Assembly (NCBI GenBank): GCA_944472155.2
Contig: OX235275.1
Location: 26,774,865-26,838,864 of the forward strand
Length of the DNA: 64,000 nt
Direction of reading: 5' to 3'
Source: Trichobilharzia szidati
Lineage: Eukaryota; Platyhelminthes; Trematoda; Strigeidida; Schistosomatidae
The translations under genes were made by a program, and so were the position numbers. The notes under the pieces are model-generated. The model saw nothing but the letters and a program-made list of their open reading frames with translations. It did not search any database and was not told where the DNA came from. Below, piece by piece: positions 3,674-64,000 of this stretch. Position 1 is the first letter of the stretch, and each line of letters opens with the position of its first letter.

Positions 3674-3700
3674 TCAATGATACGAATGCAACTGTTGATG
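3674..3700 (+). CDS. MEG copy 1, micro-exon type 1 (27 nt)
   Basis: Acceptor TTTCATTTCAG, donor GTGAGT. It encodes NDTNATVD in phase 1 and is identical to 57111-57137. An AT-rich (ATT)n run lies just upstream and varies between copies. Confidence 0.66.
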
Positions 3701-6700: not shown

Positions 6701-9700
6701 GCACGCACAAATGAACTTATTCTCGACTAGAATGAGAAGAATCGCCATTTTCAGGATTGATGATTCAGGCCTGTGAAAGCCTTCCGATCGGTATGTCTTC
6801 GTTCAATCTATGCCAAAGCAGGCGTGGAGAAATACATGGAAATAAGAATAGACAATAAAGTAATATGACAACCGCTAATAATAATTGTTCTTGTCGGTGC
6901 TACTCTAAGGTCCACAGACTCAGTGCGTCACGATAACATTGTCAACAGGCCATTTCAGTATCTGAGCAAGAAATGTCTCCGCTGGCATCACACTAGAAAT
7001 CAGAAGTCCGGGAAGAAAGAATTGGCAACAGGAAGGTGTGAAATGCAAAGAACTGACTAATAAACTGGTGAATGGCATATATCATCCGAACACACATCTA
7101 GGAGATTGACGAGTGAAAGCGACCATCTGAGTGACGTGGCGTAGATGATCTGAAGAGGTGATGAAAGCGTATGGGCAATAGTGAAGCCAACATGAGAGGA
7201 TTGCAGAGATGTGCTGCTTTTGTCCTGTTTCACTTGAAACTCAATTGGAGTAGTACTAATAGTAAAAGTAATATGACAGTAATAATTCTCGTCAGGAAAA
7301 CGCCGACGTGCTTGTACATCAAGTATATTTGAAGGAGTATTTTCATCACCAGAGTGCGAAGTGATATGCGGTGATTAGGTCCATGTGATATTTGAACCTT
7401 ATTATAACCAATGACATTATCCATGGAATTACTTCACACTGTCCCATTCAAATTCAGATTCTTCAAACATTTATTCCGCTTGATGAATTTGAATGAAGCG
7501 AGAACAACAGTCTGTGCAGAATAAGATGATACCACGATGTTACTCTGCATTTTATTTGTTTTTGTCAACATATCTGAAAGCAAGGGCTAGTCAAAATTCT
7601 GTTGTGTAGATTTGAAGGAGTATGCTCTACAGACAGATTAGAGGGAGAACGTATATTGAGTAATGACAGTTACCCTCAGAGATTCATTGCTAAGTACGGA
7701 AGATGTGAAGTCTCCAATGTCGAAAGTAGACAGATAGCCCTTTCATATTACCTATGTATATGCAGATTTACACGTATCCGCAGTAGGACATATTTAAACT
7801 CTCAGAAGTGAAGAAAGGGCACACCTTAAAATTTTGAAACATGTAGCAAAATGCCTTCGTCTCAAAGAAATCAACGTTTCCATTAGTAACATTGTCAGGA
7901 GTCTCCTTGAGTTATCAACTGAGAAAATATTTCAATTCTCCTGAAATTCTCTAACCAACCACTAAAACTCAACTTATGTGGTGAGAAAGAGGCAGTTATC
8001 AGTCTGTAATTGCACTGAATGGTGACTGGATTTCTTCACTCTCCTTTTCACTTGGTAATGCGACCTTTCACTTCAACCTCTTGCCTTTATTTTGTTACTC
8101 CTATACCATTGTATGTATACATTGCCAATTTGGTCTAAACTTGATCTGACTGCCAACTAACATCATGTCACCACATCCTCAAGTAGGTTAGAACCGTTAC
8201 TGTGCATAAACTCAATAATGTCGTCAGCATGTAAGCATATGATGAGAGAGAATTCAGCGAAATAAATGATGTTCACAGGATGTTCTGCACAAACCACTGT
8301 TGTTCTTGTTTCACTTTATTCCAGACTGAATTTGACACATACTGTTCTAATGTTCTTGAAGTTTACTTGACCTACGTGTTTGTTTCACGTCTTCTTTCAG
8401 GAATGAATCCATATGTCCTGAGTAGTGGTGAGACAAAATTAAATATTTCACAAACAATAATATTGATGAAAAATTATTGATGATGATGATGGTAGAGAAT
8501 GAGGTGGAATCTGACGAAATGAATGAGAGTTTGTGTGGAGATAAACACATCCACATAACATGAAGTCATCTTGATTTGATTTTTGAGCGAGTAACATTTC
8601 ACTGTAAGCAACACGTGGAATAGCCAGGTAATCCCATCTGCTATTTCTATTGATGTGTTTTACAATCAGAGGCACTCTACGGCCAATATTTTTGTTCCGC
8701 ATTTTGAATCTTACTGATATATGCAATCTGTAATGTGCTTGTGCGACAGCTTGTCTTTCAGTTGCTGTTATTACCACAGACTTATGACTGCATTTCACAA
8801 AAAGGGTCACATTTCTCAGTATGTATCATCTTACTGCGTTTTCTCTCCTGTCATCCTGTTGAATACAATTCATAAGTTTATTTGTTAGTTTGAAACGCTT
8901 GTTGCACTCTCTTGCACGTTTCCTATAAAACAAGAATGTACAGCCTGATTGGTGATATCGTCGAAAAGAAATCCTTTTTCACTGCCACCGTCTTTTCAAT
9001 AATTCCAACGTGTATATTCCTTAATTTGACAAAATTTATATCCGATTGATGGGATGACACAATATTGGGATATTACTCGTATAGATTCATTCTCCATTAT
9101 TACTCTCTTTGAATAACCAATGAGTTTATATTGGTTCACATTCAGGAACAAGAAATCGAACTAGAGGTAAATCACACTGACAGCGTTCAATTTGTATGCA
9201 CAAATTCACAAAACATAATAGAATAACGATGTATACATATCGTGCTTCACTTCTAGCATCACTCCGAAGTTTTACTCTGCTGCACTGAATAATAAGTCTA
9301 TTTCATGTGATTTACAATCCATAATTCCCCTCCACCTTGTTCATTTGTGTCTTCATCGGTAATAACAGCGACGTTTGTTATTTCATTGATTTATCCCCTG
9401 ATCGTGCTGTCATCTCTTCATCACGAACTCCCATTCATCACGTCTGCCTCCGACAGTCAGGATGCCGCCTCGTAGGATGAATTCTTTCAATGAATAAATA
9501 TAGTCTACACTTCATGTTCTGTGAAATTTGAATGTAGACGACTTTTCAGTAAATATAAGCCTTGGGAACATTACCTTCAAACAAGTAAACCATTGAGTAA
9601 TTTGAAATTGCTTTCTTTGAACATGCATCAGGCAGGAGAAATGACAGAATTTTAGCAAAACAATCCATAAAATCATTCTTTATCAACACTTCGCATGATT

Positions 9701-10741
9701 GTCCTGTTACTTTCAGGCGAATCTGAGTCACGTAGGCCAAATCGAACTAGAGGTAAATTACACTGGCAGTTTTCATTTTGCGTTCATGAATTTTCGCATC
9801 AAGAAAGAAATATTATGCTTGTATCTTTCTTAACTTCTAACAATTCATAGTTCAAATATTTCTCCTCAATTGGATCAATAACACGCGAATACCCTTGAAT
9901 ACACGACTTCCAACAGCATTCTCGGCAATATTTCGCACATTGTGTGTTAGAATTTTGTGTTTCAATATATAAATGTAGCATAAGTGTAGACATGCTTCTA
10001 CTACTATCAGTATAATTTTGAGAAATCTGCTCTAAACAGTTGTTGAAATCACTATTATTCCTAATATTAAGATAACTAATTGAATTTCACAAAAATTGAT
10101 AAAACTAGACAGAATGAATCGGTCGGTGTTGATATGTTGTCCACTTTGATGATCGATAAAAGAACGGCAGCATATGATTAACGTGATTTGATGCAGTATG
10201 TGGCTGCATTCAAATTGGGGTATTTCGTTACATTTCAAGTCGTTTCCCATGAACGAGATCTTTCGCCACGGAGCGATTATCACTACAAAATGTATCATAT
10301 AAATCTCGGATATTTAGCTCATGTAATATCAGTCCTTCAAGAAGTAGGATTATGAATGTTTAATTCTTGATCTAAATAATCCGTGTACATATGATGTTGT
10401 TTTGTTGATGGTTGATGGTAGTGGAATTCAGTCGCCATGCATCGAACCATTTGAGAATTGGCAGCTGATTCAATGAGTTGGTGGAAATCACGCCCAAAGC
10501 GTCCAATGTTGAGTTGACATCTTTGTGGGAAGAAGTTCACTAGTCTCAGATAGAAGGATTCGGGCAATACGGGATTCTACTGATAACAATTGCGGTACGT
10601 ATTTTCATACATATACTAGTCAATGCTTTAATTCTACTACTTTGTGTCTCTTTAGGAAGTAGAAGAAGGTGAGTTTATCTTTACGAACTTATCCTTTGAA
10701 TAATCCTTCCATATCGTCGCAGAAAAGTTGTGAATGATTAA
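3674..10741 (+). CDS. Micro-exon gene, copy 1 (3' part; 5' end outside window)
   Basis: Exons in order: 3674-3700, 8401-8427, 9146-9166, 9717-9752, 10656-10668, 10723-10741. They correspond one to one with the last six exons of copy 2. The conceptual tail is NDTNATVD, G, MNPYVLSS, G, TRNRTR, G, ESESRRPNRTR, G, SRRRKVVND, stop. Differences from copy 2 in the exons are one synonymous change each in micro-exon 3 and the 13-nt exon, a few replacement changes in micro-exon 4 and one V/L change at the end; there is no indel or stop. The upstream part, including the signal exon, is not in the window. Another repeat unit probably precedes base 1, because the sequence starts just past where micro-exon 2 ends in the other copies. 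Confidence 0.68.
8401..8427 (+). CDS. MEG copy 1, micro-exon type 2 (27 nt)
   Basis: Acceptor CTTCTTTCAG, donor GTGAGA. It encodes MNPYVLSS in phase 1, the only open frame, and is identical in three copies in the window. Confidence 0.66.
9146..9166 (+). CDS. MEG copy 1, micro-exon type 3 (21 nt)
   Basis: Acceptor TTCACATTCAG, donor GTAAAT. It encodes TRNRTR in phase 1 and differs from copy 2 by one synonymous base. Confidence 0.63.
9717..9752 (+). CDS. MEG copy 1, micro-exon type 4 (36 nt)
   Basis: Acceptor GTTACTTTCAG, donor GTAAAT. It encodes ESESRRPNRTR in phase 1. The 3' half plus the donor duplicates micro-exon type 3. Confidence 0.63.
10656..10668 (+). CDS. MEG copy 1, penultimate exon (13 nt)
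   Basis: Acceptor GTGTCTCTTTAG, donor GTGAGT. It shifts the phase from 1 to 2 and encodes G-S-R-R. Confidence 0.57.
10723..10741 (+). CDS. MEG copy 1, terminal exon with stop
   Basis: It follows a 54-nt intron with acceptor CATATCGTCGCAG. It reads K-V-V-N-D and TAA at 10739-10741 after completing a split arginine codon. Confidence 0.57.
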
Positions 10742-18671: not shown

Positions 18672-18699
18672 TATTATTTGTGATAATATAGCAAAACTG

Positions 18700-45080: not shown

Positions 45081-48000
45081 TTATTATTATTATTGTTCCC
45101 TTGGTTTCTTAATGGAACATAGGGCTTCAACAGCACGTCTCCACTTGTTTCTGTCTTCTGCTGTACTTTTCACTTGCATCCATGTTAGTCCGTACTGTTT
45201 CAGCTCCTCTTCACACGATCTCCTCCATTTCACACTTGGACGTCCCACTCGCCGTTTCCCTTTCGGGTTCCACTCGAAGGCCTGACGCGCGATGTCACCC
45301 AACGGCCCCCTCAGCGAGTCTCCAATCCATCTCCACTTTGTCCCGCATATTTGTTGGGCGATTGGTTCTTGCTTTGTTTGTTCCCTTAGTTTCTTGTTGG
45401 CGACAGCTGTTGATGAAGGTCTGCAACGTGTTGGAATTATTCTTTGTGACCCGCCAAGTTTCTGATACGTATAGAAGAACTGACTTCCCGTTTGTATTTA
45501 AAGTTAAAATTTTGTTGTTGATGCTGAGTGAAGAAGATTTCCAGATTGGTTTCAGGTTGATGAATGTGTTTCTCGCCTTCCCGATTCTCGATTTGACATC
45601 CTCGTCCCTTCCTCCTGTAGTTAATACAGTGCTTCCTAGATAAGTGAATGAAGTAACCTCTTTCAAATCCCTCCCGTTGATGGTGATTTGCGCTGGATGT
45701 TCCTTCTGTTGTTTTTGTTGTTGTTGTTGGTTGGTTACTTTCATAACTTCCGTCTTGTCTATGTTCACCTGGAGTCCTGTCTTTGCTGCTTCTTCGACCA
45801 GTTTGTCGGTTTTCGCTTGTAAGTCTTGGATTTTGTGTTGCATCAAACATAAATCATCCACGCGCGAAATCCAGGTCTTCTAGGTTCTTCACGTCGGTCC
45901 AGGATATCCCTGTCTTCTCGATTCCCACTGTCTGACGCATAATCCAGTCCACCACAATTAGGAATATCACTGGTGATAATAAGCACCCTTGTCCGACCCC
46001 TGTGCTTACTCCGAACGCCTCGCTGAGTTTTCCGTTGTGGATCACTTGACATATGCCGTTGTCGTACAGCTGTTGAATAAGGTTGATGAATATTTAGGGT
46101 ACGCCGTAGTACTCCAGTAGTTTCCAAATTACTTCGCCGTCAACGCTGTCGAAGGCCTTCTCAAAGTCTATAAAGTTGAGATAGAGGTTTGATTGCCATT
46201 CCATGCTTTGTTCGACGATGATGCGTAGAGTTGTAATTTGGTCAGAACATGATTTGCCGTTCCTGAATCCAGCTTGTTCTCGTCGGAATTCTGCATCCAG
46301 TGCCTCCTTTATTCTCACCAGGATGATGCGACTCAGGATTTTACTTGGCGTCGACAGGAGCATGATTCCTCGCCAGTTCTTGCAGAGTCCTAGGTCGCTC
46401 TTCCTTGGTAGTTTCACGAGGTAACCTTTTCTCCAGTCAGTAGGCACCTTTCCCTCCTTCCAGACCTTTAGCAATAATGGAGTCAGCATATCTGCTGTCG
46501 TTTCTGCGTCCGCTTTCAGTGCTTCCGGGGGTATTCCATCTGGTCCAGCTACTTTTCCTGCTTTCAGGAGCTTGATTGCATTCATGACTTCAGTTTTCGT
46601 TGGATGATCGGTATGTGTACGTGCTGTTGTTGGTATTGGTGGACGGGTTGCAGGTGGTGGTCGGTTCAAGAGTCCTTTGAAGTGGTCCACCCATTGTTTA
46701 ATCTGTCTTTCTTCCATGTTAATTGGGTTCCCTTGGCTGTCTTTTATAGGTTTCACTTGCGTTGATCTCTTCCCGGATAGAGACTTGGTTATCTGATATA
46801 GTGTCCTCAGGTCTCTTTTGCCTGCTACCTTCTCAGCTTCAGTGGCCAGATTATCGTAGAATTGTCTTTTGTCCTTCCTAGCACTCTTCTTCACTTCTTT
46901 GTCCAGTGCTGTGTAAGTTGAACTCAGCGTCTCCTTCTCTGGTCCGTCATTGCATTGAATCATTTTCTTTTTCATCATTCTCCTCTCCTCTATTAGCTTC
47001 CAAGTGTCCGTTGAGAGCCATTCCTTATCTTGTCTCCTCTTTCTTCCTAAAACCGTTGAACACGTTTCGTTGAAAATCACCTTCAGAGAGTTCCAATGGT
47101 CTTCCACGGATGATTCCTCAGTGGTGCTACGTAGTGTTTCCTGCTTTGCTCTGACAGTTGCATTGAAAGTGTTCTTTGTGGTTATGTCCTTCAGTTTTGA
47201 GTGTTGAGCTTGCATTGTGGGCTATCCCCAGCTATCCTCGAGGCTTTCAGCTTCACCTTGAAAGTGCCTTGTACTAGATAGTGTTCTGAACCCACATCTG
47301 CTCCTCTCTTCGACCTTGTGTCCAGTAGGCTCCGTCTCCAATTCCTTGAGATTGAAATGAAGTCTATCTGGTGAAATGCATGTCGCCTTGTGTATATCCT
47401 TGTGTTTGAACACACTGCCACCAATCAACAAATCATTGAAGGCGCAGAAGTCTGAGAAGAGTTCGCCATTTTCGTTCATTTCACCGAGGGCCTCGCGACC
47501 CATGGTGAGTTCTCCTCCTGTATTGTCTCCTCCCAGTTTCGCTTTCATATCACCTATCAGGATTCTGATATCCCCATTTGGGACGTTGTCCATTACTGCT
47601 TGTAGTTGTCTGTAGAAGGCCTCCTCCTTCTCTTGTTCTGAGACGTTTGTAGGCGCATAGCATTGAATGATTGTAACCTTCCTTCCTTTTGAGTTGAACC
47701 TGGCTGTCATTATCTTGGAGGAGATTGGTTCCCACCGCATGTGAGCTTTGGCTGCTGTTGGTGACATCATGATGGCTACTCCCTCGGTGTGCTCGTGATT
47801 GTGCTCTGGGTGACTGGAGTAGATTATTTTCTCTCCAGTTGGTAGTTGGCACGTTCCACATCCGTTCCATCTGCTCTCGCAGATTCCCAATACTTCTATT
47901 TTATATCTTCTCATTTCTGAGGCTATCTGGGCAGCCTTTCCAGTTTCGTATATTGCACGAATATTCCACGTCGCCATCCTTATTTTTGCTTTCATCGAAA

Positions 48001-48240
48001 GAAGACACATCGGCTGACTGGCTTCCAGAAGGCTTTCACCAGCCTGCGTCATTTCACTTCCCCCATTCCAGCGAAAAATAAGGTTACTGTTGATAATTTT
48101 AGTATTTGTATATATTTGTGCGTTGAAGATTTTGTAGCAATTTGGTTAAGTTTTGGGGGTGTAGTTGCTAGCACCACGCCCCAACCCTCCCTTTTTATCC
48201 GGGCTTGGGACCGGCTAGAAAACTATTGAGCTAGTAATCT
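45081..48240 (-). mobile_element. RTE-clade LINE (SR2-like), nearly full length
   Basis: Read on the minus strand: a 5' leader (about 48,240-48,053), endonuclease, RT, C-terminal domain and a (AAT)n tail at 45,095-45,081. At about 3.2 kb with endonuclease and RT in one polyprotein it fits the RTE clade, the group that includes SR2 of schistosomes. Frameshifts and stops make it inactive. Its 5' end lies about 150 bp from the TATA box of MEG copy 2, in divergent orientation. Confidence 0.83.
45090..48052 (-). pseudogene. RTE endonuclease-reverse transcriptase polyprotein (broken)
   Basis: ATG at 48,052. Endonuclease motifs: MATWNIRAIYETGK, GICESRWNG (Glu kept), IQCYAPT, ILIGDMKAKLG (family GDFNAK; Asn replaced by Lys) and, after a frameshift near 47,350, GSEHYLVQG (family SDH; Asp replaced by Glu). 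RT: AGPDGIPPEAL, KNWRGIMLLSTPSK, AGFRNGKSCSDQI, motif A FIDFEKAFDSV, a TAA at about 46,094, motif B TGVGQGCLLSP. Motif C (FADD) is split by a small insertion at about 45,865. The thumb (FTYLGSTV) and C-terminal WRRSCEEELKQ follow in shifted frames. It would nick DNA and prime reverse transcription. Confidence 0.83.
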
Positions 48241-48382
48241 AGGCGAGGTTGTTTTGAGTATGCTCACATTGATATTGTTGTTATTGGTGAAATGAGTACA
48301 GACACAGACATCTGAGACGGACAGTCAAAAGCACCACTTTTCTTTGATTGGTTTTTAATGAAAGTGATCAAATTTTCAAAGC

Positions 48383-48390
48383 TATATAAG
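48383..48390 (+). promoter_or_regulatory. TATA box of MEG copy 2
   Basis: TATATAAG lies 50 bp upstream of the ATG at 48440, so a start site near 48,412-48,418 would leave a 5' leader of about 25 bp. It sits in an ordinary AT-rich stretch, but the exact TATATAAG match followed by a signal-peptide exon with a consensus donor makes it credible. The 5' end of a minus-strand RTE lies about 150 bp upstream. Confidence 0.6.
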
Positions 48391-48439: not shown

Positions 48440-48497
48440 ATGGGTTCCTGCTCCTTACTCCTGATTACATCATACTTGGTGACGATGGGACTAGTCG
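48440..48497 (+). CDS. MEG copy 2, exon 1 (signal peptide)
   Basis: ATG at 48440 opens 19 codons plus one base, encoding MGSCSLLLITSYLVTMGLV, a short hydrophobic signal-peptide-like segment with little charge. The exon ends in G followed by the donor GTAAGT at 48498, so the intron is phase 1, the same phase as every downstream micro-exon. The upstream base context is A-rich (CACG before ATG). No homologous first exon is visible for MEG copy 1, whose 5' end lies left of the window. Confidence 0.7.
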
Positions 48498-51400
48498 GTA
48501 AGTCATTAATGAAACATTGTTCATATATGTAAATTAAAATACACAGACGGTATACGCATAAGTGTGAAAAGCACAAGATTTTAGTTCGTTTATGAAAGCG
48601 TATCACAATTTCATGTTTGATCTCTACTAATCCAAGCGTTATCCACAGTATATTTATATATGACCGAATTTAACAAAGCTAACACAATGAACGATTCGCA
48701 GTCACCCTTTCCTAACACTAGATTGCTGGTGTATCCGTTGGGAGTGCAATTAAATTTGATTAGTTATCAGGTGAACTGACCATACATACCTGCCTTCTAT
48801 AAGAGCACGGAACTATTTAGATTCGCATTCTGTAGCCTACCGACCTGGGCGCCCTTTATCCTCAGGGTTTGTTTCTTACCATTATTTTTATTATTATTAT
48901 TTTTGTATATATATGTGCACAAGTAAACAGTTACTCTGATCATTTACCTCCTCAGTGAGTCATTCGCTGAATGGCAAGACTAAAGTCAAAATACCCTGTT
49001 TACACGACTCATGAGACATGTGATCATATACCACAGTAGCATATGTTATGGCATTTTAGAGAGCAGGCTTTCGATAAATGACACCACCACCTATTCACCA
49101 TCCTTACAAGCAGCTTCTTACCTGAAATGTTTCAATATATGTCTCTTGTAATGATTATATTAAGAATCACTGAAAACACTCAGCAGTATAGCTCTGAATT
49201 AATTTATGTTTGGAAAGGTCAGTGAATTTCATTCATGACCGCAGGTTATGCTTTATTCTTCTTTAAGGCTTGTCAATACCAATCGTTCAAGAAATTGTGA
49301 TTGATACAAATGGCATCATATAGTTGTAACAACTCAAACAGTCCCTTCTGCACGCACATCTTATGTTTTCTAGAGTTTAGTCAAGTTGTAGGCAAGACGA
49401 TAAGGGTTTGTGTTCCCTTTTTATTGACAGTTCAACAGTTGACGATATATAGCTTATTCCTGCACAGAGGTAGACAAAGAAAACTGACTGGGAAGGCTAA
49501 GATTTATTGTTGCAGCGTAGAGGCAGTATCACGAGATGTTGTAGGTAATGGTATACTAACTTAAAAAAAACTGAAATTAACAGATCATGGGAGAAACATT
49601 GACTATTAATACATCTGATTCTATCCTAAGAAATTTGAAATTGTGTTCATTTAATTACTGAAACTACATTTGGTTAAAGGTCAGAAGATTCTCAATAGGA
49701 AGCAGAACATATAACTCTGTGTCATCATATGTATTTCTGAAATATAACGAATATGTAGGTCAGTAGCATGATACTAATTGCCTCGAACTAACAGTTAGAC
49801 AAGATGACCTTAGTAAACCTCTAAAATAGCAGCTAAATTGAGGTACATTGCAAAAGCCAGCGTGAGATGACACGTAGTGAAAATAATAAAAAATAAATAA
49901 AATCAGAAGAATCGTCATTTTCAGGATGGATGATGCAGGCTTTTGAAAGCCTTCCAATCTGTATGTCTTCTTTCACTTAATGAAAAGCAGGCGTGGGGAA
50001 ATAAATGGAAGTTCCGTACCATTTTGAAGGCTGTCTAGGCCAGTCGGCATAGAAGAGAAATAAGAATATACAATAATATAATAATTACAGGTCCTGCAGC
50101 AATGTCCAGTCGTGAGCGGTTTTAAAGAAACTTTGTCATACTGGTAAAGGCAACCTACTCAAACGCAGACAGGCAGCAAGCCGTTTAGGAGATGAGATTA
50201 GGAGTTGAAATGTGATGTGATGAAATTTATTTTGTATTGTCGGGGATGCTCACAGACTCGATTTCTGGTCAATTTCTTCACAGATCTGCGGATGCATATT
50301 AACCTCATTGAATTTGGCAAAGTGTGTGTTTGTGTGGCGTTATTCACTGAAACCAGAGTCAGTGAGTGAGTAATGTAGAGTATTAAACCTGAGCTATTTG
50401 AGTTCAAGTTTGACACAATGTACGAATTTAATTAATAAAAAGGAATAATTACTAGAGTTTAGTAAGCCCAATGAGCCTAGTTCTAAGTGTGTTGGTGATG
50501 TTCATTGGATTCCATCAGACAAAGTTTCAGTTTTGCAAGGAAATCTTCGTTTAATATTCTAGGCATTCGTCAGTCAGTTCAGTGTAATTCTAGTTCCTAT
50601 AACACTGAGGAAGACAGTATTATGCAATATACAGCCATCAAATAATGCCATTTTGTTGTAGACGGAATAGTACATGACGGAATCAATGGACCAATAAGTA
50701 TGATAAAGAATTCTCATTAAAATTCGCTTTTTCATTATTATTATTGTTTTTGTTATTACTGTTACTTTTCTGGAAGCCATTGTTTGTTTAATTCTCACAG
50801 GCAGACATGCAGTATACATGTATGTAGGTGCTGCTATCAATAAATCCAAAAATGTCTCAACGCATTAATTTATTGACGAAAGTGTCTTCCAAGTGATTCT
50901 GGTTTACTGCATTTGTCCTCACAGTCGTGGCCACTAATAGAATATTGATATTCTTACAGTAGTATTATTCATTCTTTCATCTCAGTTCCACTAGACTCTC
51001 TCCCATGACTTTCAAGTAGTAGGTTGAGGACTGGTCAAAAGCCGTAATCACTTATTCACACGATCTCCTCCATGTCATCGTCGGATACTCAAATGGGTTC
51101 TTAGCGTTCTACGTCTAGTTGAGTATCAATTTTGACGTACAGCTTTCGCTTATCATTTGGTGAGTGAAAGTCGCTTTCCTCTTTTGGCGAACAGATCGGT
51201 CACAAAACCATAAATGATGGAAGATATGTCACTTTGCAAACCTTACGGAAAATCTCCGTCCGCTGACCAGAGAGACTGCTGAGCACGCACAAATGAACTC
51301 ATTCTCAACTAAAATCAGGAAGAATCGCCATTTTCAGGATGGATGATTCAGGCCGCCTTTGAAAGCCTTCCGATCGGTTTGTCTTCTTTCAATTTATGCA

Positions 51401-54400
51401 AAAGCAGGCGTGAGGAAATAAATGGAAATTCCGTACCATTCTGGAGGCTGTCTAGGCCAGTCGGAATTGAAGAGAATTGAGAATAGAAAAAAAAATAAAA
51501 CAACCGCTAATAGTTGTTCTAGTCGGTGCTACTCTAAGGTCCACAGACTCAGTGCGTCACGATAACCATTGTCAACAGGCCATTTCAGTATCTGAGCAAC
51601 AAATGTCTTCGCTGGCATCGTACTGGAAATCAGACGTCCGGGAAGAAAGAATTGGCAACAGGAAGGTGTGAAATGCAAAGAACCGACTAATAAACTGGTG
51701 AATGGCAAATATCAACCGAACACACATCTAGGAGATTGACGAGTGAAAGCGACCATCTGAGTGACGTGGCGTAGATGATGTGAAGAGGTGATGAAAGCGT
51801 GTGGGCAATCGTGAAGCCAACATGAGAGAATTGCAGAGATGTGCTGCTTTTGTCCTGTTTCACCTGAAACTCAATCGGAGTAGTACAGAGAGTAAGAGTA
51901 ATGTAACAGCAATAATTCTCGTCAGGAAAACGTTGATGTTCTTATACATAAACTATATTTGAATGAGTACTTTTATCACCAGGGTGCGAAGTGATATGCG
52001 GTGAATAGGTCCATGTGATATTTGAACCTTCTTATAACCAATGACATTATCCATGGAATTACTTCACACTGTCCCACACAAATTCAGATTCTTCAAACAT
52101 TTATTCCGCTTGATGAATTTGAATGAAGCGAGAACAACAGTCTGTGCAGAATAAGATGATACCCCGATGTTACTCTGCATTTGATTTGTTTTTGTCAACA
52201 TAGCTGTAAACGAGCGCTAGTGAAAATGCTGTTGTGTAGAGTCGAAGGAGTATGCTCTACAGACAGATTAGAGGGAGAAGATATATTGAGTAATGACAGT
52301 TACCCTGAGAGATTCATTGCTGAGTACGGAAGATGTGAAGTCTCCAATGTCGAAAGTAGACAGACGACCCTTTCATATTAACTCTGTATGCGCAGATTTT
52401 CACGTATCCACAGTAGGACATGGTTTAACTGGCAGAAGTGAAGGAAGGGCACATCTTCAAATTTTAGAACATGCACTAAAGTGCCTTCGTCTCAAAGAAA
52501 TAAACGTTTCCTTTAGTACTATTGTCAGGAGGCTACTTGAGTTATCAAAGGAAAAATAATTTCAATTCTCCTGAAATTCTCTAACCAACGACTTAAGCCA
52601 GACTTATGTGGTGAGAAAGAGGCAGTTATCAGTGTGTCGTTGCACTGCACGGCAACTGGAGTTCTTCACTCTCCTTTTCACTTGGTAACGAGCCCTTTGA
52701 CTTTAACCTCTGGCCTTTGTTTTGTAACTCCTATACCATTGTATGTATACATTGACACTTTTGTCTAAACTTGATCTGACTGCCAACTAACATCATGTCA
52801 ACACCTCATCAAGTAGGTTAGAACTGTTACTGTGCATAAACACAATAATGTCGTAAGGCGGTATGCAGGCAGATGACAAGGGAGAGGTCAGCGAAATAAA
52901 TGATGTTCACAGGTTGTTCTGCACAAACCACTGTTGTTCTTGTTTCACTTTATTCCAGACTGAAGTTGTTCTCATGTTCTTGAAGTTTACTTGACCCACG
53001 TGTTTGTTTCACAACTTCTTTCAGGAATGAATCCATATGTCCTGAGTAGTGGTGAGACGAAATTAAATATTTCACAAACAATAATATTGATGAAAAATTA
53101 TTGATAATGATGATGATGACGGTAGAGAATGAGGTGTAATCTGACGAAATGAATGAGAGTTTGTGTGGAGATAAATACATCCACATAACATGAAATCATC
53201 TTGATTTGATTTTTGAGCGAGTAACATTTCACTGTAAGCAACACGAGGAATAGCCAGACCTCACAGTGAATCGATGACACTTATCTGTCTATTCGACGTC
53301 ACAATGGCTGCTCAACTATGTCTTCAACGATCAACTGTGATGATGGAATGAGTGATGCAAGTAGGGTGGTAAATAATGGAGAGAGTCTCCGAGATATATC
53401 TTCGAGTTGATGGACGTTCAATGATGTTATGGGTAAAGATATAGAGATGAAGTGAAAATCAGGATGTCAGAATATTTCGAATGTATGCTTATACATCGTT
53501 CATCCACATGACATATAACTAATGCCTCTTAGTCACCTGGTAGATAGATAGGTCTTGTGGCTGAGACAACGGATACCTGAACTGATAACCGGAAAGCCTT
53601 CACGGATTGAAATATGCTTTTCACCTTTATACTTGTATTTGCTCACATCGTATCTTAAGTCAGAAAATATAACAGTCTTCAGTTGTAAATCACGGAAAGA
53701 CATATAATGGAAATAATATGAGTTTCGGGGGTCCATATAGGGCAGTCATATCTCCTAAAGTTACTTTTTGAGCAGTATTGTATCGTGTCCTGATGAAGAA
53801 ACGCGTATACTTTATTCGTGTTTGTTGGTGGGAAACCTATTGGTCGCAGGTTTTCATTATGAGCGGAAATTGACTCAAGAACCAGTGGATTGTCGGAGAC
53901 TGGCTGACTTCATGTTATACCACTAGTTGAGGTCAGTTGGTAACCTAACTTGGAAAGTGATATAAATCGAATCAACAATCTACTGAAATGCTGCCCACAA
54001 GAAGTGTCACTCTATTGTGTGCAAGCATGATTGGTGTGGAGTATATAGTTGAAGCACGAAAGCAACTACACTCAGGATGTGTATAAGGAAGAGGTTTTGC
54101 TTTCTTTACACTGAAGGAGTTGTCTGAATGGAAAGTGAAGGCTTCACATCTAAACCGTTCATCTCTGAAGAGAAGCAGCCGTATCACTTGCACTACTGAT
54201 ACGCATAATCAATTCGTTCTGATTCATACTCTTTTAGTGTCTCATTTGTGTTCAACTCTATACTACGAAGTACTAAATCGTGATATGCGTCGTTACATTC
54301 CTCACTGTTTCTTAACTCAGTTATGATTATAAATATTACTCCTCCGGCTATCGAGTAGAACATTGGACGTAAACAGATTGATTCTTCATTTTTCTCGGTT

Positions 54401-57400
54401 CATGATGACATCTTCAGCTGGCTCCATAACTGCTCGTAAGCTCCCAGCTGCGCCTCACTTGATCTTCATCAACTCATAGTCGCACCCTTGCTCACCTCGC
54501 CGTCTCCCGACCGAGTTCCATTTCAGCGATGGCCTGATACGTGATGTCACTCAACCGTCTCCTCAGAATGTGACCGATCTATCTTCGTTTCTGCTTGGTT
54601 TATAGATTATTGATTGACTCGCAACTGGTGTTTCTTTTGCAATTCCTCCCAGCCATTAGTTCTTCAGGATGAAGCCTGCGTTTGCAAATGTTGATGGGTG
54701 TCTGCAGTCAGTAGGAGTTGTTTTCGTGACGCGTGTGCCCAGTTTCCTATCCATTTGGAAGAAGTGACTTGACATTACTGCTGGATATCCAAAGTTAGTG
54801 CTAAGTGTTCGGTGTGGTGGATTTCAACACTGTCGTTATTTGAGTGAGACAATGCTGCCTGGATAAGTGAAAGTAGTGATCTCGTTGAAATTTCTCTGGT
54901 TGATGGTATTTGGTGCTTGTAATTGTTGGTAAGGTTTCTTCATTAGCGCTGTCTTCTCTAAGGTTATCTGTGTTATGTGAATTCCTCTCCTGCCAACTTG
55001 TTGGTTTCCACCCATGGATCTTCTCGTTTGTATGAGATAAGAGATTAATAATCCTCAATTCCCCCATCAATTTGAGTCCTTCTTCCGGTCCGAAGTAGGT
55101 CGGTCCTCTCAGACTCCACGATCTGCTGTATGATCCAGTTCACCACAGTCAAGAATATCATCAGTGACAGTAGGCATCGTCATATTACTTCTCTCTTCAC
55201 GGTAGACGCTTGGCTGTGTTCTCCGTTGCTGACACAATAATGTGTCTGTTGTTGAGTGAAGTAGAGAAATGTTTCGGTTATTCCGTAGTGTTGAAGCAGT
55301 TTCCAAATTATTTATGAACATGATGAACTCTGTTATAGGCCTTCTCGAAATTGTTGAAGTTGAAGCAGATATTTGACTAACTGGCATTCTATGCTGTGTT
55401 TGATGACGATGAGCAGAGTTGCAAAATCATCCACATACCACTTGCTTCTCCTTAATTAATTAAGATTGTTCCATGAGGAGATCTGCATCGAGAGCATCTC
55501 TCAGTCTCTACAGGAGGACGAGACTGAATATTGTGCTTGGCGTGGATAGGAGCGTAATTACTTGTCAGTTCTCGCAAATGGTCTAGTCACCCATTTCTGG
55601 TAGTCTGATAAGGTGTCTTTTCGTTACTCCAAGTCCACAGTTATTGATTTCCATTGAAAATGATCTCACTTATTGTATAAACAGTAAACATCGTCACTCA
55701 CAACTATTTTACAATGGTCAAATCGATTTCGGCGTACAGTTCATCTTAACCTTTCACGCTCTTCTGACTGACTGTCACTTTCTATTCTTCATCTGATCTT
55801 GCCCTTGATGTTTACTTCTGACCGCATATCATGTACTTCTACCGTATTTAAGGCGATTCCGGTGTTTGAGAATTCACGGTTCACTCAGACATTTGATTTG
55901 ATGCATCGATTGTTGTTATGGCTGTAGCTTACTGGGAAGAAATCCACTGATGTCTTGGATAAAACAGAATACCTTCTCTGAATGTGTGAGATGACTTAGT
56001 TGACAATCCATCCCTTCCTCGTTGGCAAACAACTTCGATCACTGGTCCACCTGTATTTCCGTTCTTAAAACACAACGCAGCTTATTTTCTCTGAATCTTA
56101 TTGTGCATAGTCGATATCATAGTAGAGCACGAGAATCAGATTCTCCGTCTATCTGTCTGCCTGTCTGTCTGTCTGTCTATCTGTGTGCTCACCTTATTCA
56201 AATTCACAAAAGAATGATACACCGAAGGGAAGTAAGTACTTTGGACTATTCGCTCAAATCACCATTTTTACTGTTCTTCTAGTTTCTATATTCAGTTTGA
56301 CATCTGTGACCAGCTTCCTCTCAGACAATGGTCAACGGAGTTGTGTCCTTGTCCTTTCTCTTCAAGTTCAACATTCCACATTTCAAAAGTAGTCAGTCAG
56401 CATTATAATGAGGTGACATAGTTGTGTCTTGTTTTGTTAATCATATTCACAAGTGGTGTACTGTCGTGTTGAATTGTCGTACGACCAGAAATTTGAAGGT
56501 GTGTGGAACAGAACAAAGTGAACTGGATACACTGAATATACTGATGTGGTTAATTAGTCTGATGAGGAATCTGCGTGTGGGTGTGTGGGTGTGTTAATAG
56601 TAGATAAAAGTGATGCGAGAGTAGTATGGAAGCGTTTTGAGAAAATGTGAACCTTAGCGACATATTTCTACAAATACGTAGGCTTGTCGGTCGTAGGCAG
56701 ATTTCCCTATCCAAATGTGTCATGGAACACTGACACACAGCCACACAGTTTTATATTATGCCCTTGTGTATTGTGTTTTCCAATCTCGGGATGTACCCAT
56801 GTACACTTCCACACACTTGTCTTCCTGACTGACTGTCTGTGCTCGTTTCTCAAAATTACAGAAACGTGTCATTAGGGATTGATTGGTATATACTTCGGAT
56901 AGAACAGCACTGCGTCACATGATATACAATGGATTGCTGTTCTACTTAGACATCGATCTTGGATGAAGGGAATTCTTGTGCGATAATTCATGCTGACAGT
57001 TCTATATATTTTGTTAACAATTTTTCAGAATAAATTGATCATTACTATTACTATTGTCGTTATAATTATCATTAGTAGTATTATTATTTGCGTTACTAAT
57101 TTCATTTCAGTCAATGATACGAATGCAACTGTTGATGGTAAGTTATGTGGCTGTACGCATCCTGATTTTGTCATCTTTTATTTACAAATGACTGAACATA
57201 TCGAATCTCACATACACACGTACAAATAGAAAGCAACAGATGAGAGGACCTGTTCAGTGTAGATTGCTTAAATACGATGCATAATTTGCATGATCTCATA
57301 GTACACTATTCCTTTCAATACTCATTTGAAATATCAACATAATCGCAAACACTTGTAGAATAGTTGAGTAATTCTGGTGTAGTTTGTGCTGGAGTGTTTG

Positions 57401-60400
57401 ATGGTCAAGTTTCATTGCCCTTCCGACAAACATTTTCATTTGCAACACCTATCCAGATGCTATTACACAAGTGCCGCAGACATTGATCAGCAGGTGGTCA
57501 GTATGCACTGGACAGTTCATCCTGAAAAACGAACATGTGAAATGAATGATTTGGCACCACCGTAATCATGAATAATCAATCCATTGGAAAGCCTTCTGCT
57601 TCTCGACTACTCGGAAAATTGGATAGTGCTAGGAAAATGTGAGAATGAAGAGTTAAAACCATCGCACATTGAGAAAAGCTGTAGCCTAAGAGAAAATGAA
57701 ATGGGAAGAACTGAGAAGGGTCAAGGGAAAATGAAATCTGTTACTGCGAAGCGGAAATCGTATGCAGCTCTTCAAGACGGTCATCAATTTGAAAGGTGAA
57801 AGCGTTCTTTCTGAATACAGAAATCTGGACTGGCCAACCATCATTGCAACAGCTTCAACTTCGTGTATAACGACACAAACGAACTATGTACGATGCTTCT
57901 TATGTGTAGAATGTGGAGGCTATGTGAGCGTCTATACGACGTGTTATGTGTCTCAAGTGTGAAGATGTTCAGCTTTGTCATGCATATAAACTAGACTGGT
58001 CAATGTTGTGAAGTCAGTAAACGAGTCTTCCCAGTTGTCGTCCTATACATATTGTGGACTACAAGAATGTTTGAAACGGTGTATGCATGAGGAAGAACCA
58101 AGACTAGGTGAGACATCTTTCAGAATCGGAGTCAACAGGAGATATCCACTGATCGACCTGCATAATTCTCTTCATATATCTCTGTATTTATATGTCAGGA
58201 TAGAATCCTAGTGTAGTATGTGCCACTGATAAGATTTATCAATAGTAATATAAGGAGACATTCATCGGCTCTGTCTGTCTCTCTCTCTATTCTGCTTATG
58301 CTACACATTATGGACGGCTTCTCTCCGTTCTGTTCTCAGCCTCTTCATATGCCACACCTGCTGGAGAAGCCAGGTTGTGCTGTGTATTGGTAGTCGTGGT
58401 TTCCAACTAGACATCCACAGAAATGGTGACATCTTCGTTGTTTTCTGAGTGGATGCACGATGTGTTAGTAGAATCGGTGAAAGCTGTGTCTTTCAGTTAC
58501 CTCCCTGCAACGTCCCAGGACGAACAGCTTCGCCGTCGGATCACTGAAGGCATTCAACTCAGACACGGCCCTCCTTACATAGGTGTTATTCATAGATTTG
58601 CAAACTGACATCCAAGTGAAGTAGAATTCAAATTTCGCTGTTTCAACTTTCAACCAAGCATCTGCAATTTTCACCAGAAATGTATCCACAAATATCATAT
58701 CAGCAATAATCAACTGAATCCATCCTGACGCTCGTTGACGCTCGAACTTCTACTTGTTGTTGTCGTCTAGAACGGAAATAAAAGTATCGGGACTTAAACA
58801 ACCACTCGCACAGAACTCGACAACATGACATGTTTGACATCCTGTAGGAATTTAATTGATAAACGGACTAATTACTAGAGTTTATTAAGCCCAATGAGCC
58901 TAGTTCTAAGTGTGTTGGTGATGTTCATTGGATTCCATCAGACAATGTTTCAGTTTTGCAAGGAAATCTTCGTTTAATATTCTAGGCATTTATCAGTCAG
59001 TTCAGTGTAATTCTAGTTCCTATAACACTGAGGAAGACAGTTTTATGCAATATACAGCCATCAAATAATGCCATTTTGTTGTAGACGGAATGGTACATCA
59101 CGGAATCAATGGACCAATAAGTATGACGAAAAATTCTCATTGAAATTCGAATTTTCATTATTATTATTTTTGTTACTGTTATCACTGTTACTTTTCTGGA
59201 AGCCACTTTATGTCAAATTCTCATAACCAGACATGGAGTATACATGTATGTAGGTGCTGCTGTCAATATATTCACAAATGTCTCAACGCCTCGATTTATT
59301 GAGGAAAGTGTCTTCCAAGAAATTCTGGTTTACTGCATTTGTCCTCACACACGTGACCACTCATAAAATATTGATATTATTACAGTAATATTAGTCATTC
59401 TTTCATCTCAGTTCCACTAGACTCTCTCTTCGATGACTTTCAAGTAGTAGGTTGAGGACTGCTCAAAAGCCGGAATCACTTATTCACACGATCTCCTCCA
59501 TGTCATCGTCGGATACTCAAATGGGTTCTTGGCGTTCTACGTCCAATTGAGTATCAATTTTGTCGTACAACTTTCGCTTATCATTTGGTGAGTCGAAGTC
59601 ACTTTCCCCTTTCGATGCACCGAACGGTCACAAAACCATAAATGATAGAAGATATGTCGCTTTGCAAACCTTACGGAAACTCTCCGTCCGCTGACCAGAG
59701 AGACTGATGAGCACGCACAAATGAAGTTATTCTCGACTGGAATCAGAAGAACCGCCATTTTCAGGATGGATGATTCAGGCCACCTTTGAAAGCCATCCGA
59801 TCGGTATATCCACTGTCAATTTATGCAAAAGCAGGCGTGAGGAAATAAATGGAAATTCCGTACCATTTTGGAGGCTGTCTAGGCCAGTCGGAATAGAAGA
59901 GAAATGAGAATAGACAATAAAATCATATGACAACCGCTAATAATTGTTCTAGTCGGTGCTACTCTAAGGTCCACAGACTCAGTGCATCACGATAACCATT
60001 GTCTAGGAGATTGATGAGTGAAAGCGACCATCTGAGCGACGTGGCGTAGATGATGTGAAGAGGTGATGAAAGCTTATGGGCGATTGTGAACCAACATGAG
60101 AGAATTGCAGAGATGTGCTGCTTTTGTCCTGTTTCACCTGAAACTCAATCGGAGTAGTACAGAGAGTAAGAGTAATGTAACAGCAATAATTCTCGTCAGG
60201 AAAACGTTGATGTTCTTATACATAAACTATATTTGAATGAGTACTTTTATCACCAGGGTGCGAAGTGATATGCGGTGAATAGGTCCATGTGATATTTGAA
60301 CCTTCTTATAACCAATGACATTATCCATGGAATTACTTCACACTGTCCCATACAAATTCAGATTCTTCAAACATTTATTCCGCTTGATGAATTTGAATGA

Positions 60401-63400
60401 AGCGAGAACAACAGTCTGTGCAGAATAAGATGATACCCCGATGTTACTCTGCATTTGATTTGTTTTTGTCAACATAGCTGTAAACGAGCGCTAGTGAAAA
60501 TGCTGTTGTGTAGAGTCGAAGGAGTATGCTCTACAGACAGATTAGAGGGAGAAGATATATTGAGTAATGACAGTTACCCTGAGAGATTCATTGCTGAGTA
60601 CGGAAGATGTGAAGTCTCCAATGTCGAAAGTAGACAGACGACCCTTTCATATTAACTCTGTATGCGCAGATTTTCACGTATCCACAGTAGGACATGGTTA
60701 AACTGGCAGAAGTGAAGGAAGGGCACATCTTCAAATTTTAGAACATGCACTAAAGTGCCTTCGTCTCAAAGAAATAAACGTTTCCTTTAGTACTATTGTC
60801 AGGAGGCTACTTGAGTTATCAAAGGAAAAATATTACAATTTTCCTGAAATTATGTGATCAACGATTAGAATCCGAATTATGTGCCGAGAGAGAGCAGTTA
60901 TCAGTCTGTCTTTGCACCGCATGGTAACTGGATTTCTTCACTCTCCTTTTCACTTGAGAACGCGACCTTTGACTTTAACCTCTTGCCTTGATTTTGTAAC
61001 TCCTATACCATTGTATGTATACATTGACATTTTTGTCTAAACTTGATCTGACTGCCAACTAACATCATGTCACCACATCCTCAAGTAGGTTAGAACTGTT
61101 ACTGTGCATAAACACAATAATGTCGTAAGGCGGTATGTAGGCAGATGACAAGGGAGAAGTCAGCGAAATAAATGATGTTCACAGGTTGTTCTGCACAAAC
61201 CACTGTTGTTCTTGTTTCACTTTATTCCAGACTGAAGTTGACACAAACTGTTCTCATGTTCTTGAAGTTTACTTGACCCACGTGTTTGTTTCACGTCTTC
61301 TTTCAGGAATGAATCCATATGTCCTGAGTAGTGGTGAGACGAAATTAAATATTTCACAAACAATAATATTGATGAAAAATTATTGATGATGATGATGATG
61401 GTAGAGAATGAGGTGTAATCTGACGAAATGAATGAGAGTTTGTGTGGAGATAAATGCATCCACATAACATGAAGTCATCTTGATTTGGTCTTTAAGCGAG
61501 TAACATTTCACTGTAAGCAACATGCGGGATAGCCAGGTAATCCCATCTGCTATTTCTGTTGATGTGTTTTGCAATCAAAGGCACTCTGCGGCCAATATTT
61601 TTCTTCCGCGTTAGGAATCTTACTGATATATGCAATTTGCGGTGTGCTTGTGCGACAGCTTGTCTTTCAGTTGCTGTTATTACCACAGACTTATGACTGC
61701 ATTCGAGAAAAATAGTCACATTTCTCAGTATGTATCATCTTACTGCATTTTCTCTCCTGTCATCCTGTTGAATACAATTCATAAGTTTATTTGTTAGTTT
61801 GAAGCGGTTGTTGCACTCTCTCACACGTTTCCTATAAATACAAGAATGTACAGCTTGATTGGTGATATCGTCGAAAAAAAATTCTTTTTCGCTCCCACCA
61901 TCTTTTCAATAATTCCAACGTGTATATTCCTTAATTTGACAAAATATATATCCGATTGATGAGATGACACAATATTGGGATATTACTCGTATAGATTCAT
62001 TCTCCATTATTACTCTCTTTAAATAACCCATGAGTTTAAATTGGTTCACATTCAGGAACAAGAAATCGAACAAGAGGTAAATCACACTGACAGCGTTCAT
62101 TTTGTATGCACAAATTCACAAACCAAAATAGAATAACAATGTATTCACATCGTGCTTCACTTCTAACATCACTCCGATATTTTACTCTGCTGCACTGAAT
62201 ACTAAGTCTATTTCATGTGATTTACAATCCATCGGTGGCACAGTGGTTAGGACTCTCGCCAACCATGCACATGGTACGGGGTTCGACCCCCTGACGGCGC
62301 ACACCCGATATCTATGATCGGCCTGTAAATTTGGGCTACCGATATCCATGCTGAAAATTCCACACCTGTACCTACAAATACGGTGTGGCATCAAGCTGTA
62401 ATAAAAATATAAAAAATATAAAAATTATAAATAATTCCCCTCCTCCTTGTTCATTTGCGTCTTCATCGGTAATAACAGCGACTTTTGTTATTTCATTGAT
62501 TTATCCTCTGATCGTGCTGTCATCTCTTCATCACGAACTCACATTCATCACGTCTACCTCCGACAGTCAGGATGCCGCGTCGTAGGATCAATTCTTTCAA
62601 TGAATAAATGTTGTCTACACTTCATGTTCTGTGGAATTTGAATGTAGAAGACTTTCCAGTAAATATAAGCCTTGCGCACAAAACCTTCAAACAAGTAGAC
62701 CATTGAGTAATGTGAAGTAGCTTTCCTTGAACATGCATCAGGCAGGAGAAATGACAAAATTTTAGCAAAACAATCCATAAAATCATTCTTTATCAACACT
62801 TTGCATGTATGTCCTGTTACTTTCAGCCGAATCTGAGTCAGACAGGCCAAATCGAACTAGAGGTAAATTACACTGACAGTTTTCATTTTGTGTTCATGAA
62901 TTTTCGCATCAAGAAAGAAATATTATGCTTGTATCTTTCTTAAGTTTTAACAATTCATAATTCAAATATTTCTCCCCAAATGGATCAATAACACGCGAAT
63001 ATTCTTGAATACACGACTTCCAACAGCATTCTCGGCAATATTTCGTGCATTGTGTGTTAGAATTTTGTGTTTCAATGTATAAATATAGCATGAGCGTAGA
63101 CATGCTTCTACTACTATCAGTGTAATTTTGAGAAATCTGCTCTAAACAGTTGTTGAAATCGTTATTATACCTAATATGAGGATTACTAATTGAATTTCCA
63201 AGAAACTGATAAAACTAGACAGGGAGAATCGGTCGGTGTTGATAGGTTGTCCTCTATGATGATCGATAAAACAACAGCAGCATATGATCAACGTGATTTA
63301 ATGCAATATGTGGCTGCATGCAAATTGGAGCATTTCGTTACATTTCAAGTCGTTTCCCATGAACAAGATCTTTCGCCACGGAGCGATTATCACAACAAAA

Positions 63401-63851
63401 TGTATCATATATATCTCGGATATTTAGCTCATGTAATATTAGTCCTTCAAAAAGTAGGATTATGAATGTTTAATTCTTGATCTAAATAATCCATGCATGT
63501 ATGATGTTGTTTTGTGGATGGTTGATGGTAGCGGAATTCAGTCGCCACACATCAAACTATTCGAGAATTGGCAGCTGATTCACTGAGTTGGTGGAAATCA
63601 CGCCCGAAACGTCCGATGTTGAGTTGACATCTTTGTGGGAAGAAGTTCACTAGTCTCAGATAGAAGGATTCGGGCAATACGGGATTCTACTGATAACAAT
63701 TGTGTTACGTAGTTTCATACATATACTAGTCAATGCTTTAATTCTACTACTTTGTGTCTCTTCAGGAAGCAGAAGAAGGTGAGTTTATCTTTACGAACTT
63801 ATCCTTTGAATAATCCTTCCATTTCATCGCAGAAAAGTTCTGAATGATTAA
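48440..63851 (+). CDS. Micro-exon gene, copy 2 (complete model, 8 exons, secreted glycopeptide)
   Basis: Proposed spliced CDS: 48440-48497, 53025-53051, 57111-57137, 61307-61333, 62056-62076, 62827-62862, 63766-63778, 63833-63851. The lengths sum to 228 nt, i.e. 75 codons plus stop, with no internal stop. Order of parts: hydrophobic signal peptide (19 residues), G, MNPYVLSS, V, NDTNATVD, G, MNPYVLSS, G, TRNRTR, A, ESESDRPNRTR, G, SRRRKVLND. Every intron up to the penultimate exon is phase 1, so each internal micro-exon can be skipped without a frame change. N-glycosylation sequons are NDT, NAT and two NRT; the C-terminus is strongly basic. Known of the class: schistosome MEGs encode short secreted, variably spliced peptides from gland or tegument, with symmetric exons of 36 nt or less. 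I infer membership from architecture and do not recognise a numbered MEG family. Extra exons between 48,500 and 57,000 are possible. Confidence 0.72.
49870..50070 (+). repeat. Extra dispersed copy of part of the unit
   Basis: A short block resembling 6,727-6,850 and 51,305-51,480 (the stretch around CAGGATGGATGATGCAGGC and GGCTGTCTAGGCCAGTCGG). It lies outside the tandem units, about 350 bp before truncated copy B, so it is either a dispersed repeat or debris from an earlier unequal exchange. Confidence 0.6.
50424..53256 (+). repeat. Intragenic tandem unit, copy B (truncated, 3' third)
   Basis: Corresponds to copy A from about 5,850 to 8,620. It contains micro-exon 2 but not micro-exon 1, and runs directly into copy C at about 53,257. 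Homology starts abruptly near 50,424 inside the first part of MEG copy 2. Confidence 0.85.
53025..53051 (+). CDS. MEG copy 2, micro-exon type 2 (first instance, 27 nt)
   Basis: Acceptor CTTCTTTCAG ends at 53024 and donor GTGAGA starts at 53052. Read in phase 1 it gives MNPYVLSS flanked by split glycine/valine codons; the other two frames contain stops (TGA, TAG), so only the phase shared with exon 1 is open. The 27 nt are identical to 8401-8427 and 61307-61333, while the surrounding intron has substitutions and indels. It sits at the end of the truncated repeat copy at 50,424-53,168. Confidence 0.65.
54390..55840 (-). mobile_element. Fossil RTE-clade LINE fragment in unit C
   Basis: Paralogue of 1,195-2,440, with its own indels. 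It resembles the RT and C-terminal part of the minus-strand RTE at 45,081-48,240 but is broken by many stops. Confidence 0.65.
56147..56183 (+). repeat. TCTG/TCTA microsatellite, unit C
   Basis: Expanded counterpart of 2,745-2,772 in the same intron position. Confidence 0.8.
57111..57137 (+). CDS. MEG copy 2, micro-exon type 1 (27 nt)
   Basis: Acceptor TTTCATTTCAG ends at 57110 and donor GTAAGT starts at 57138. In phase 1 it encodes NDTNATVD with split flanking codons (V and G), giving two overlapping N-glycosylation sequons. The exon is identical to 3674-3700 in copy 1. The donor differs (GTAAGT here, GTGAGT there) but is consensus in both, which is what selection on splicing would leave. 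Confidence 0.68.
61307..61333 (+). CDS. MEG copy 2, micro-exon type 2 (second instance, 27 nt)
   Basis: Acceptor CTTCTTTCAG ends at 61306 and donor GTGAGA starts at 61334. It encodes MNPYVLSS in phase 1 and is identical to 8401-8427 and 53025-53051. It ends the second 8.3 kb unit, so the model contains this peptide twice with NDTNATVD between. Confidence 0.68.
62056..62076 (+). CDS. MEG copy 2, micro-exon type 3 (21 nt)
   Basis: Acceptor TTCACATTCAG ends at 62055 and donor GTAAAT starts at 62077. In phase 1 it reads TRNRTR with a split glycine codon in front. Against 9146-9166 in copy 1 there is one difference, ACT to ACA, which is synonymous. It contains an NRT sequon. The following intron carries a SINE that copy 1 lacks. 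Confidence 0.65.
62233..62432 (+). mobile_element. tRNA-derived SINE in a MEG intron
   Basis: A 200-bp block absent from the homologous place in copy 1 (around 9326, where TCCATAATTCCCC is continuous). It starts with a pol III A box (TGGCACAGTGG), has a B box (GGTTCGACCCC) about 40 bp on, and ends in an A-rich, AT-tailed stretch (62,400-62,432). A tRNA-like head plus A-rich tail inserted precisely into one of two paralogues is the signature of SINE retroposition. It lies in the intron between micro-exons 3 and 4. No hammerhead core (CTGATGA) is visible, so I do not equate it with the Sm-alpha family. Confidence 0.78.
62827..62862 (+). CDS. MEG copy 2, micro-exon type 4 (36 nt)
   Basis: Acceptor GTTACTTTCAG ends at 62826 and donor GTAAAT starts at 62863. 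In phase 1 it encodes ESESDRPNRTR preceded by a split alanine codon (glycine in copy 1). Compared with 9717-9752 it has several substitutions but no indel, stays open and keeps both splice sites. Its last 14 nt and following intron start are the same as those of micro-exon type 3, so one arose from the other. Confidence 0.65.
63766..63778 (+). CDS. MEG copy 2, penultimate exon (13 nt)
   Basis: Acceptor TGTCTCTTCAG ends at 63765 and donor GTGAGT starts at 63779. The 13 nt enter in phase 1 and leave in phase 2, encoding G-S-R-R and two bases of the next codon. Copy 1 has one base change (AGT to AGC, serine in both). Its length is not a multiple of 3, but the following exon restores a frame with an immediate stop. 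Confidence 0.58.
63833..63851 (+). CDS. MEG copy 2, terminal exon with stop
   Basis: A 54-nt intron separates it from the 13-nt exon; its acceptor follows CCTTCCATTTCATCGCAG. The exon completes an arginine codon and reads K-V-L-N-D then TAA at 63849-63851. The copy-1 counterpart reads K-V-V-N-D and stops at the same place. The 3' UTR and polyadenylation site probably lie beyond the window. Confidence 0.58.
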
Positions 63852-64000
63852 CTCTTATATGACGAAAGCTATTTGGTTTGTTATCTTTGAAATAATTAAG
63901 AATGCAAGTAGTTCGACTGGTCGGTCTTGAAGTCAGTGTCGGAAATTGTAACTAGTAGGACAATCAAGATGATCATATCAGTTCACAGAACACATCAATA

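Follow-up and report, generated by a model that had tools for sequence, protein, structure and literature searches.

The question raised by this locus is whether a chain of very short exons spread over some 15 kb is a genuine micro-exon gene (MEG). The locus lies in a 64,000-nucleotide stretch of contig OX235275.1 (assembly GCA_944472155.2, positions 26,774,865 to 26,838,864), called the window throughout and numbered from its first letter, and a first-pass annotation of this DNA had proposed there a MEG with a small secreted product. Our reading, to which we give a probability of about 0.8, is that the window holds two tandem MEG copies, gene A and gene B, in the genome of an avian schistosome of the genus Trichobilharzia, probably T. 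szidati. This reading rests on an excess of micro-exon-like intervals, a second gene copy, the duplication of an exon unit, a TATA-like site, the Trichobilharzia origin of the genome and the published structure of MEGs. The frame and the splice signals are read directly from the DNA, as are the second copy of exons 3-8 and the duplication of the MNPYVLSS exon together with its intron.

Gene B is the copy that had been proposed earlier. When its eight exons on the plus strand were joined, they gave a single frame of 228 nt from ATG to TAA over a genomic span of 15,412 nt, with a conceptual product of 75 residues, MGSCSLLLITSYLVTMGLVGMNPYVLSSVNDTNATVDGMNPYVLSSGTRNRTRAESESDRPNRTRGSRRRKVLND, and in these respects the first-pass annotation was accurate. 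The introns measure 4527, 4059, 4169, 722, 750, 903 and 54 nt, and every one has GT-AG borders. The parts of the gene are as follows.

48382..48390, plus strand: TATA-box-like site CTATATAAG, beginning 58 bases 5' of the gene B ATG
48440..48497, plus strand: exon 1, coding part, 58 nt, hydrophobic N-terminus MGSCSLLLITSYLVTMGLV
53025..53051, plus strand: exon 2, 27 nt, phase 1-1, MNPYVLSS
57111..57137, plus strand: exon 3, 27 nt, phase 1-1, NDTNATVD, two sequons
61307..61333, plus strand: exon 4, 27 nt, phase 1-1, MNPYVLSS, same sequence as exon 2
62056..62076, plus strand: exon 5, 21 nt, phase 1-1, TRNRTR, one sequon
62827..62862, plus strand: exon 6, 36 nt, phase 1-1, ESESDRPNRTR, one sequon
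63766..63778, plus strand: exon 7, 13 nt, asymmetric, phase 1 to 2, SRRR
63833..63851, plus strand: exon 8, coding part to TAA, 19 nt

The earlier statement that all internal exons are symmetric and phase 1 has to be amended, since it holds for five of the six, the exception being exon 7. The product does carry the MNPYVLSS repeat and the NRT sequons that had been described, each twice, and NDT and NAT bring the sequons to four (residues 30, 33, 50 and 62). Each sequon lies whole within one cassette, two in exon 3 and one each in exons 5 and 6, and the MNPYVLSS cassettes have none. The highest nine-residue hydropathy, 2.34, falls at residues 6-14, inside exon 1, and past residue 20 the maximum is 0.68; these values come from a hydropathy profile, which is not a signal-peptide predictor. 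For the predicted mature part, a GRAVY of -1.0 to -1.2 denotes a hydrophilic peptide and a pI of 10.7 a basic one.

On the 5' side of gene B, a retroelement occupies 45295-48145 on the minus strand in separate open reading frames (ORFs), with RVT_1 (E 5.6e-13) and DUF6451 above the cut-off and an endonuclease match below it. The ORF edge of the reverse transcriptase remnant is 295 bases 5' of the gene B ATG.

The tandem copy, gene A, had not been mentioned in the first-pass annotation. Counterparts of exons 3-8 are found at 3674-10741.

3674..3700, plus strand: counterpart of exon 3, 27 nt, identical
8401..8427, plus strand: counterpart of exon 4, 27 nt, identical
9146..9166, plus strand: counterpart of exon 5, one difference, synonymous
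9717..9752, plus strand: counterpart of exon 6, four mismatched bases falling in two codons, each of which changes its residue
10656..10668, plus strand: counterpart of exon 7, one difference, synonymous
10723..10741, plus strand: counterpart of exon 8 down to the TAA stop, with a single difference (Leu to Val)

With its first residue assumed, this part of gene A reads VNDTNATVDGMNPYVLSSGTRNRTRGESESRRPNRTRGSRRRKVVND. The first exons would fall beyond the window edge, and AATAAA occurs after the counterpart of exon 8 at 11048 and 11076. Gene A and gene B are 37.7 kb apart (10741 to 48440), and most of 1-10888 can be aligned piecewise to 53168-63998 at 79 to 93% identity; in a second comparison of the copies, 7.8% of 10,341 aligned positions were mismatched.

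Duplication is also evident within gene B, where the unit carrying exon 2 and its flanking intron recurs around exon 4.

50405..53257, plus strand: unit containing exon 2 with its flanking intron, the duplicate at 58829-61536 aligning in two pieces
58829..61536, plus strand: unit with exon 4 and flanking intron, partner of 50405-53257

The cores of these units (51727-53257 for exon 2 and 60002-61540 for exon 4) are 96.5% identical to each other and 91.3 to 91.5% identical to the gene A core (7097-8630), and 101 of 151 two-state sites unite the two gene B cores against the gene A copy. Either an exon was gained in gene B after the gene duplication, or conversion homogenised the two units; both would produce this pattern. 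Exons 5 and 6, compared by eye, are alike at their 3' ends, at the donor and at the start of the following intron, which suggests an older micro-exon duplication.

The origin of the DNA is indicated by a retroelement ORF at 17301-18707 on the minus strand, which is 96% identical over 97% of its length to a T. szidati protein and 78% identical over 82% to a T. regenti protein; six of its seven matches are to Trichobilharzia and one is to Schistosoma mekongi. The genus is thereby well supported and the species likely. A search with a reverse transcriptase of the window was uninformative, as none of the best 120 of its 2377 matches was named as a schistosome. T. szidati belongs to the Schistosomatidae, the blood-fluke family in which MEGs are found.

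The published descriptions of MEGs agree with gene B on several points. A MEG is described as having long flanking exons, a centre of micro-exons, a signal peptide in the 5' exon and a small product (PMC4671649), with micro-exons of under 36 bp (PMC4671649) or of 6 to 36 bp (PMC5825161), 26 of 33 being symmetric in MEG-26 to -32 (PMC4671649). Gene B likewise has internal exons of 13-36 nt, most of its micro-exons symmetric (five of six), a hydrophobic first exon, a small product and introns of up to 4.5 kb; the coding parts of its flanking exons are 58 and 19 nt, untranslated regions not included. The asymmetry of exon 7 has parallels, in that non-symmetric exons are reported among MEGs (PMC10526429). 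One survey of Schistosoma MEGs describes tandem clusters, defined at 50 kb, with species-specific duplications and with Perere-3 and hammerhead SINE elements nearby (PMC4350168), and at the present locus there is similarly a tandem copy with retroelements in the vicinity, at a spacing that is within the 50 kb criterion.

Other points weigh against our reading. According to PMC10526429, a MEG has between 10 and 20 exons and most of these measure 15 nt, whereas the chain predicted for gene B has eight exons, none of 15 nt. About 80% of MEG coding length is reported to be in short symmetric exons (PMC5825161), as compared with 138 of 228 coding nt (61%) in the predicted chain. The motif FL-phi-phi-F-X6-W, which every S. 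mansoni MEG is said to carry after its signal peptide (PMC10526429), cannot be present in the gene B product, because this contains neither Phe nor Trp; the motif is described for S. mansoni only, and gene B is not filed in the S. mansoni MEG protein alignment. An Rfam scan of the window gave no match of any kind at gathering score, and so none to hammerhead elements like those reported near S. mansoni MEGs. When the gene B product was searched against a protein database, one candidate shared words with it and none matched at E up to 10 among lengths of 41-131 residues; proteins of both T. szidati and T. regenti are represented in the database, at least in part, and the presence of the S. mansoni MEG entries in it was not checked. 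The missing aromatic motif and the low exon number have slightly lowered our confidence. The MEG architecture claimed in the first-pass annotation is supported by the hydrophobic exon 1, the micro-exons, the tandem copy and the schistosomatid genome; the lack of a protein match, the missing aromatic motif and the number of exons count against it.

A first alternative to our reading would be that splice-like sites happen to line up as such a chain by chance. That 228 nt form one frame is less telling than it may seem, because symmetric, open, phase-1 pieces chain in frame in any order. We therefore counted such intervals (9-60 nt, summed splice score at least 15), using general metazoan scoring matrices and a cut-off that was set after the exon scores had been seen. 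Gene B has seven, as against none in the 37.4 kb between the copies, four on the minus strand of the whole 64-kb window, and an average of 0.44, never exceeding 3, when gene B was simulated 300 times under a Markov-1 model; four of the seven form two duplicated pairs, which leaves five independent intervals. A looser cut-off admitted more background, with nine in gene B, seven in gene A, six between the copies and 11 on the minus strand, although per 10 kb the densities were still 5.8 and 6.4 in genes B and A compared with 1.6 between them and 1.7 on the minus strand. We also counted strong splice-bounded intervals of 8-60 nt with no frame condition. In gene B all eight were open in the frame of the chain and seven were multiples of three, compared with three and one, respectively, of the eight found between the copies. 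Gene A had five multiples of three out of six, two of the six sharing one acceptor, and the minus strand of the window five out of 12, although the two that lie opposite gene B were both multiples of three, as chance assembly would allow. The eight in gene B are the six internal exons and two copies of an 18-nt candidate exon, and number six independent intervals when duplicates are collapsed. Moreover, the chain begins with a piece that supplies a start codon and a hydrophobic N-terminus, with the TATA-like site 5' of the ATG. Taken together, these comparisons make a chance assembly very improbable.

A second alternative is decay: a real MEG ancestor may have left duplicates of which one or both are untranscribed and degenerating. 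The copies differ at 7 of 143 exon nucleotides where non-exon segments drawn at random to match the exon sizes would predict 10.9 (P = 0.23), so that exon divergence is not below the intron rate and no purifying selection is demonstrated, which again counts against our reading; the chance that two 27-nt exons would both be identical is P = 0.04. Exon 6 has two changed codons, each encoding a different residue in the two copies, and several retroelement ORFs are located between the two genes. Against decay, the splice dinucleotides and the frame of exons 3-8 have been kept in both copies, with no stop or frameshift at an overall divergence of 7.8%, and elevated dN/dS is in any case reported for MEGs (PMC4350168). 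We consider this explanation unlikely. The third alternative is compatible with a pair of MEGs and concerns only the completeness of the chain, which may be one form of the gene or may lack further exons or a different 3' end; we would give this an even chance. Schistosome MEGs usually have more exons, 10 to 20 as given above and 17 in meg-8.2 (PMC12998952), and there is one candidate for an additional exon.

51983..52000, plus strand: candidate extra 18-nt exon (CEVIC), with copies at 60257-60274 and 7353-7370

The candidate is found about 1 kb 5' of each MNPYVLSS exon in all three copies. It scores 15.4 at 51983 and 60257 in gene B, but no other donor in the gene B set is as weak as its own (6.1), and with 14.0 the copy in gene A falls short of the cut-off. 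At the 3' end two structures can be read, one in which exons 7 and 8 are spliced and one in which the last exon starts at exon 7, and this ambiguity also tells against the chain as we give it. Retention of the 54-nt last intron would end the product after SRRR at an in-frame stop, and skipping of exon 7 would give a product ending in EKF, also in frame; against the first of these, the donor of exon 7, with a score of 12.2, surpasses all others in gene B, favouring splicing there. Neither AATAAA nor ATTAAA occurs between exon 8 of gene B and the end of the window.

We also compared gene B with known families. By its architecture it is probably a new MEG-type gene with no recognised family; no numbered family (MEG-2, -3, -4, -8, -9 or -26) is assigned, as the similarity criterion gave no support in a search that covered lengths of 41-131 residues and used no family profiles. 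MEG-2 (ESP15) and MEG-3 (Grail) of Schistosoma egg and larval secretions resemble gene B in their short products and tandem clusters (PMC4350168), MEG-2.1 isoform peptides being numbered up to 88 and 52 (PMC10399815), but the protein search gave no match among proteins of 41-131 residues, and MEG-2.1 is described as hydrophobic where the gene B product is hydrophilic past its start. MEG-26 of the esophageal gland shares with gene B an internal duplication with a repeated exon pattern, as in SmMEG-26.2 (PMC5825161), but has an amphipathic helix, in contrast to the hydrophilic post-start part of the gene B product with its four sequons, for which no helix analysis was made. Pfam returned no family for the product. 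Exon 1 alone gave a bee toxin match (E 0.13; 12.4 bits, where the cut-off is 25), which we rejected, and the only match in a PDB sequence search, to flagellin hook family chain 6xi1 (E 0.0018, 21.7 bits), was taken as chance.

The first-pass annotation had called the gene apparently undescribed. The blank protein search agrees with this, as does the lack of any occurrence of four strings of the peptide in the literature text searched, but novelty is unproved, as 10 MEG transcripts of T. szidati and four of T. regenti have been reported, their annotation resting on BLASTp comparison with six reference entries from S. mansoni (PMC6362228). Those transcripts come from the same or a sister species and some are not close to S. 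mansoni MEGs, and the gene B locus could be among the 10.

As to function, we can only suggest how such a gene might work. Exon 1 would supply a signal peptide, the frame-neutral phase-1 cassettes would add short modules, either MNPYVLSS or one with one or two N-glycosylation sequons, and the last exons would add an arginine-rich tail. Cassette skipping may then give variant peptides acting at the host interface; if it behaves as other MEG products do, the peptide would lack a fixed fold and do its work outside the worm. Transcription, secretion from a gland or the egg, and N-glycosylation are likewise inferred. The secreted glycopeptide of the first-pass annotation is, on the basis of the hydrophobic N-terminus and the four sequons, a fair proposal, in which both the secretion and the glycosylation are predicted from the sequence. 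A membrane-lytic role has been shown for MEG-8.2 (PMC12998952), but is not suggested here because the gene B peptide is hydrophilic past its first 20 residues, amphipathicity not having been computed. MEGs are also found in egg and larval secretions (PMC4671649, PMC13219023), and by comparison with these a soluble host-interface peptide seems more likely than a lytic one. Because each sequon is inside one cassette, skipping could change the number of glycans without a change of frame. The boldest extension, which we consider unlikely, would be a Trichobilharzia MEG family with sequon-bearing cassettes, in which skipping sets 0 to 4 N-glycans on one secreted basic peptide and exon-plus-intron duplications add spacer cassettes.

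MEGs are secreted at the interface between blood flukes and their hosts, and their tiny exons make them easy to overlook. The pair described here offers a concrete test of whether Trichobilharzia annotation does overlook them, and its duplications at the level of the gene, the exon unit and the micro-exon illustrate in an avian schistosome how MEGs may grow. It adds to an already known kind of gene, and its significance is moderate.

A tRNA scan of the window, run with the bacterial setting, found none, and there are 499 N at 13728-14226. Between the two genes, an ORF at 42547-42831 on the plus strand encodes 95 residues with a hydrophobic start and has no Pfam family above the cut-off. Two inverted arms at 37834-39049 and 39663-40878, of 1216 bp each, are 99.5% identical, and the ORF that they contain has a GIY-YIG match below the cut-off (E 0.0031); we presume this inverted pair to be Penelope-like.

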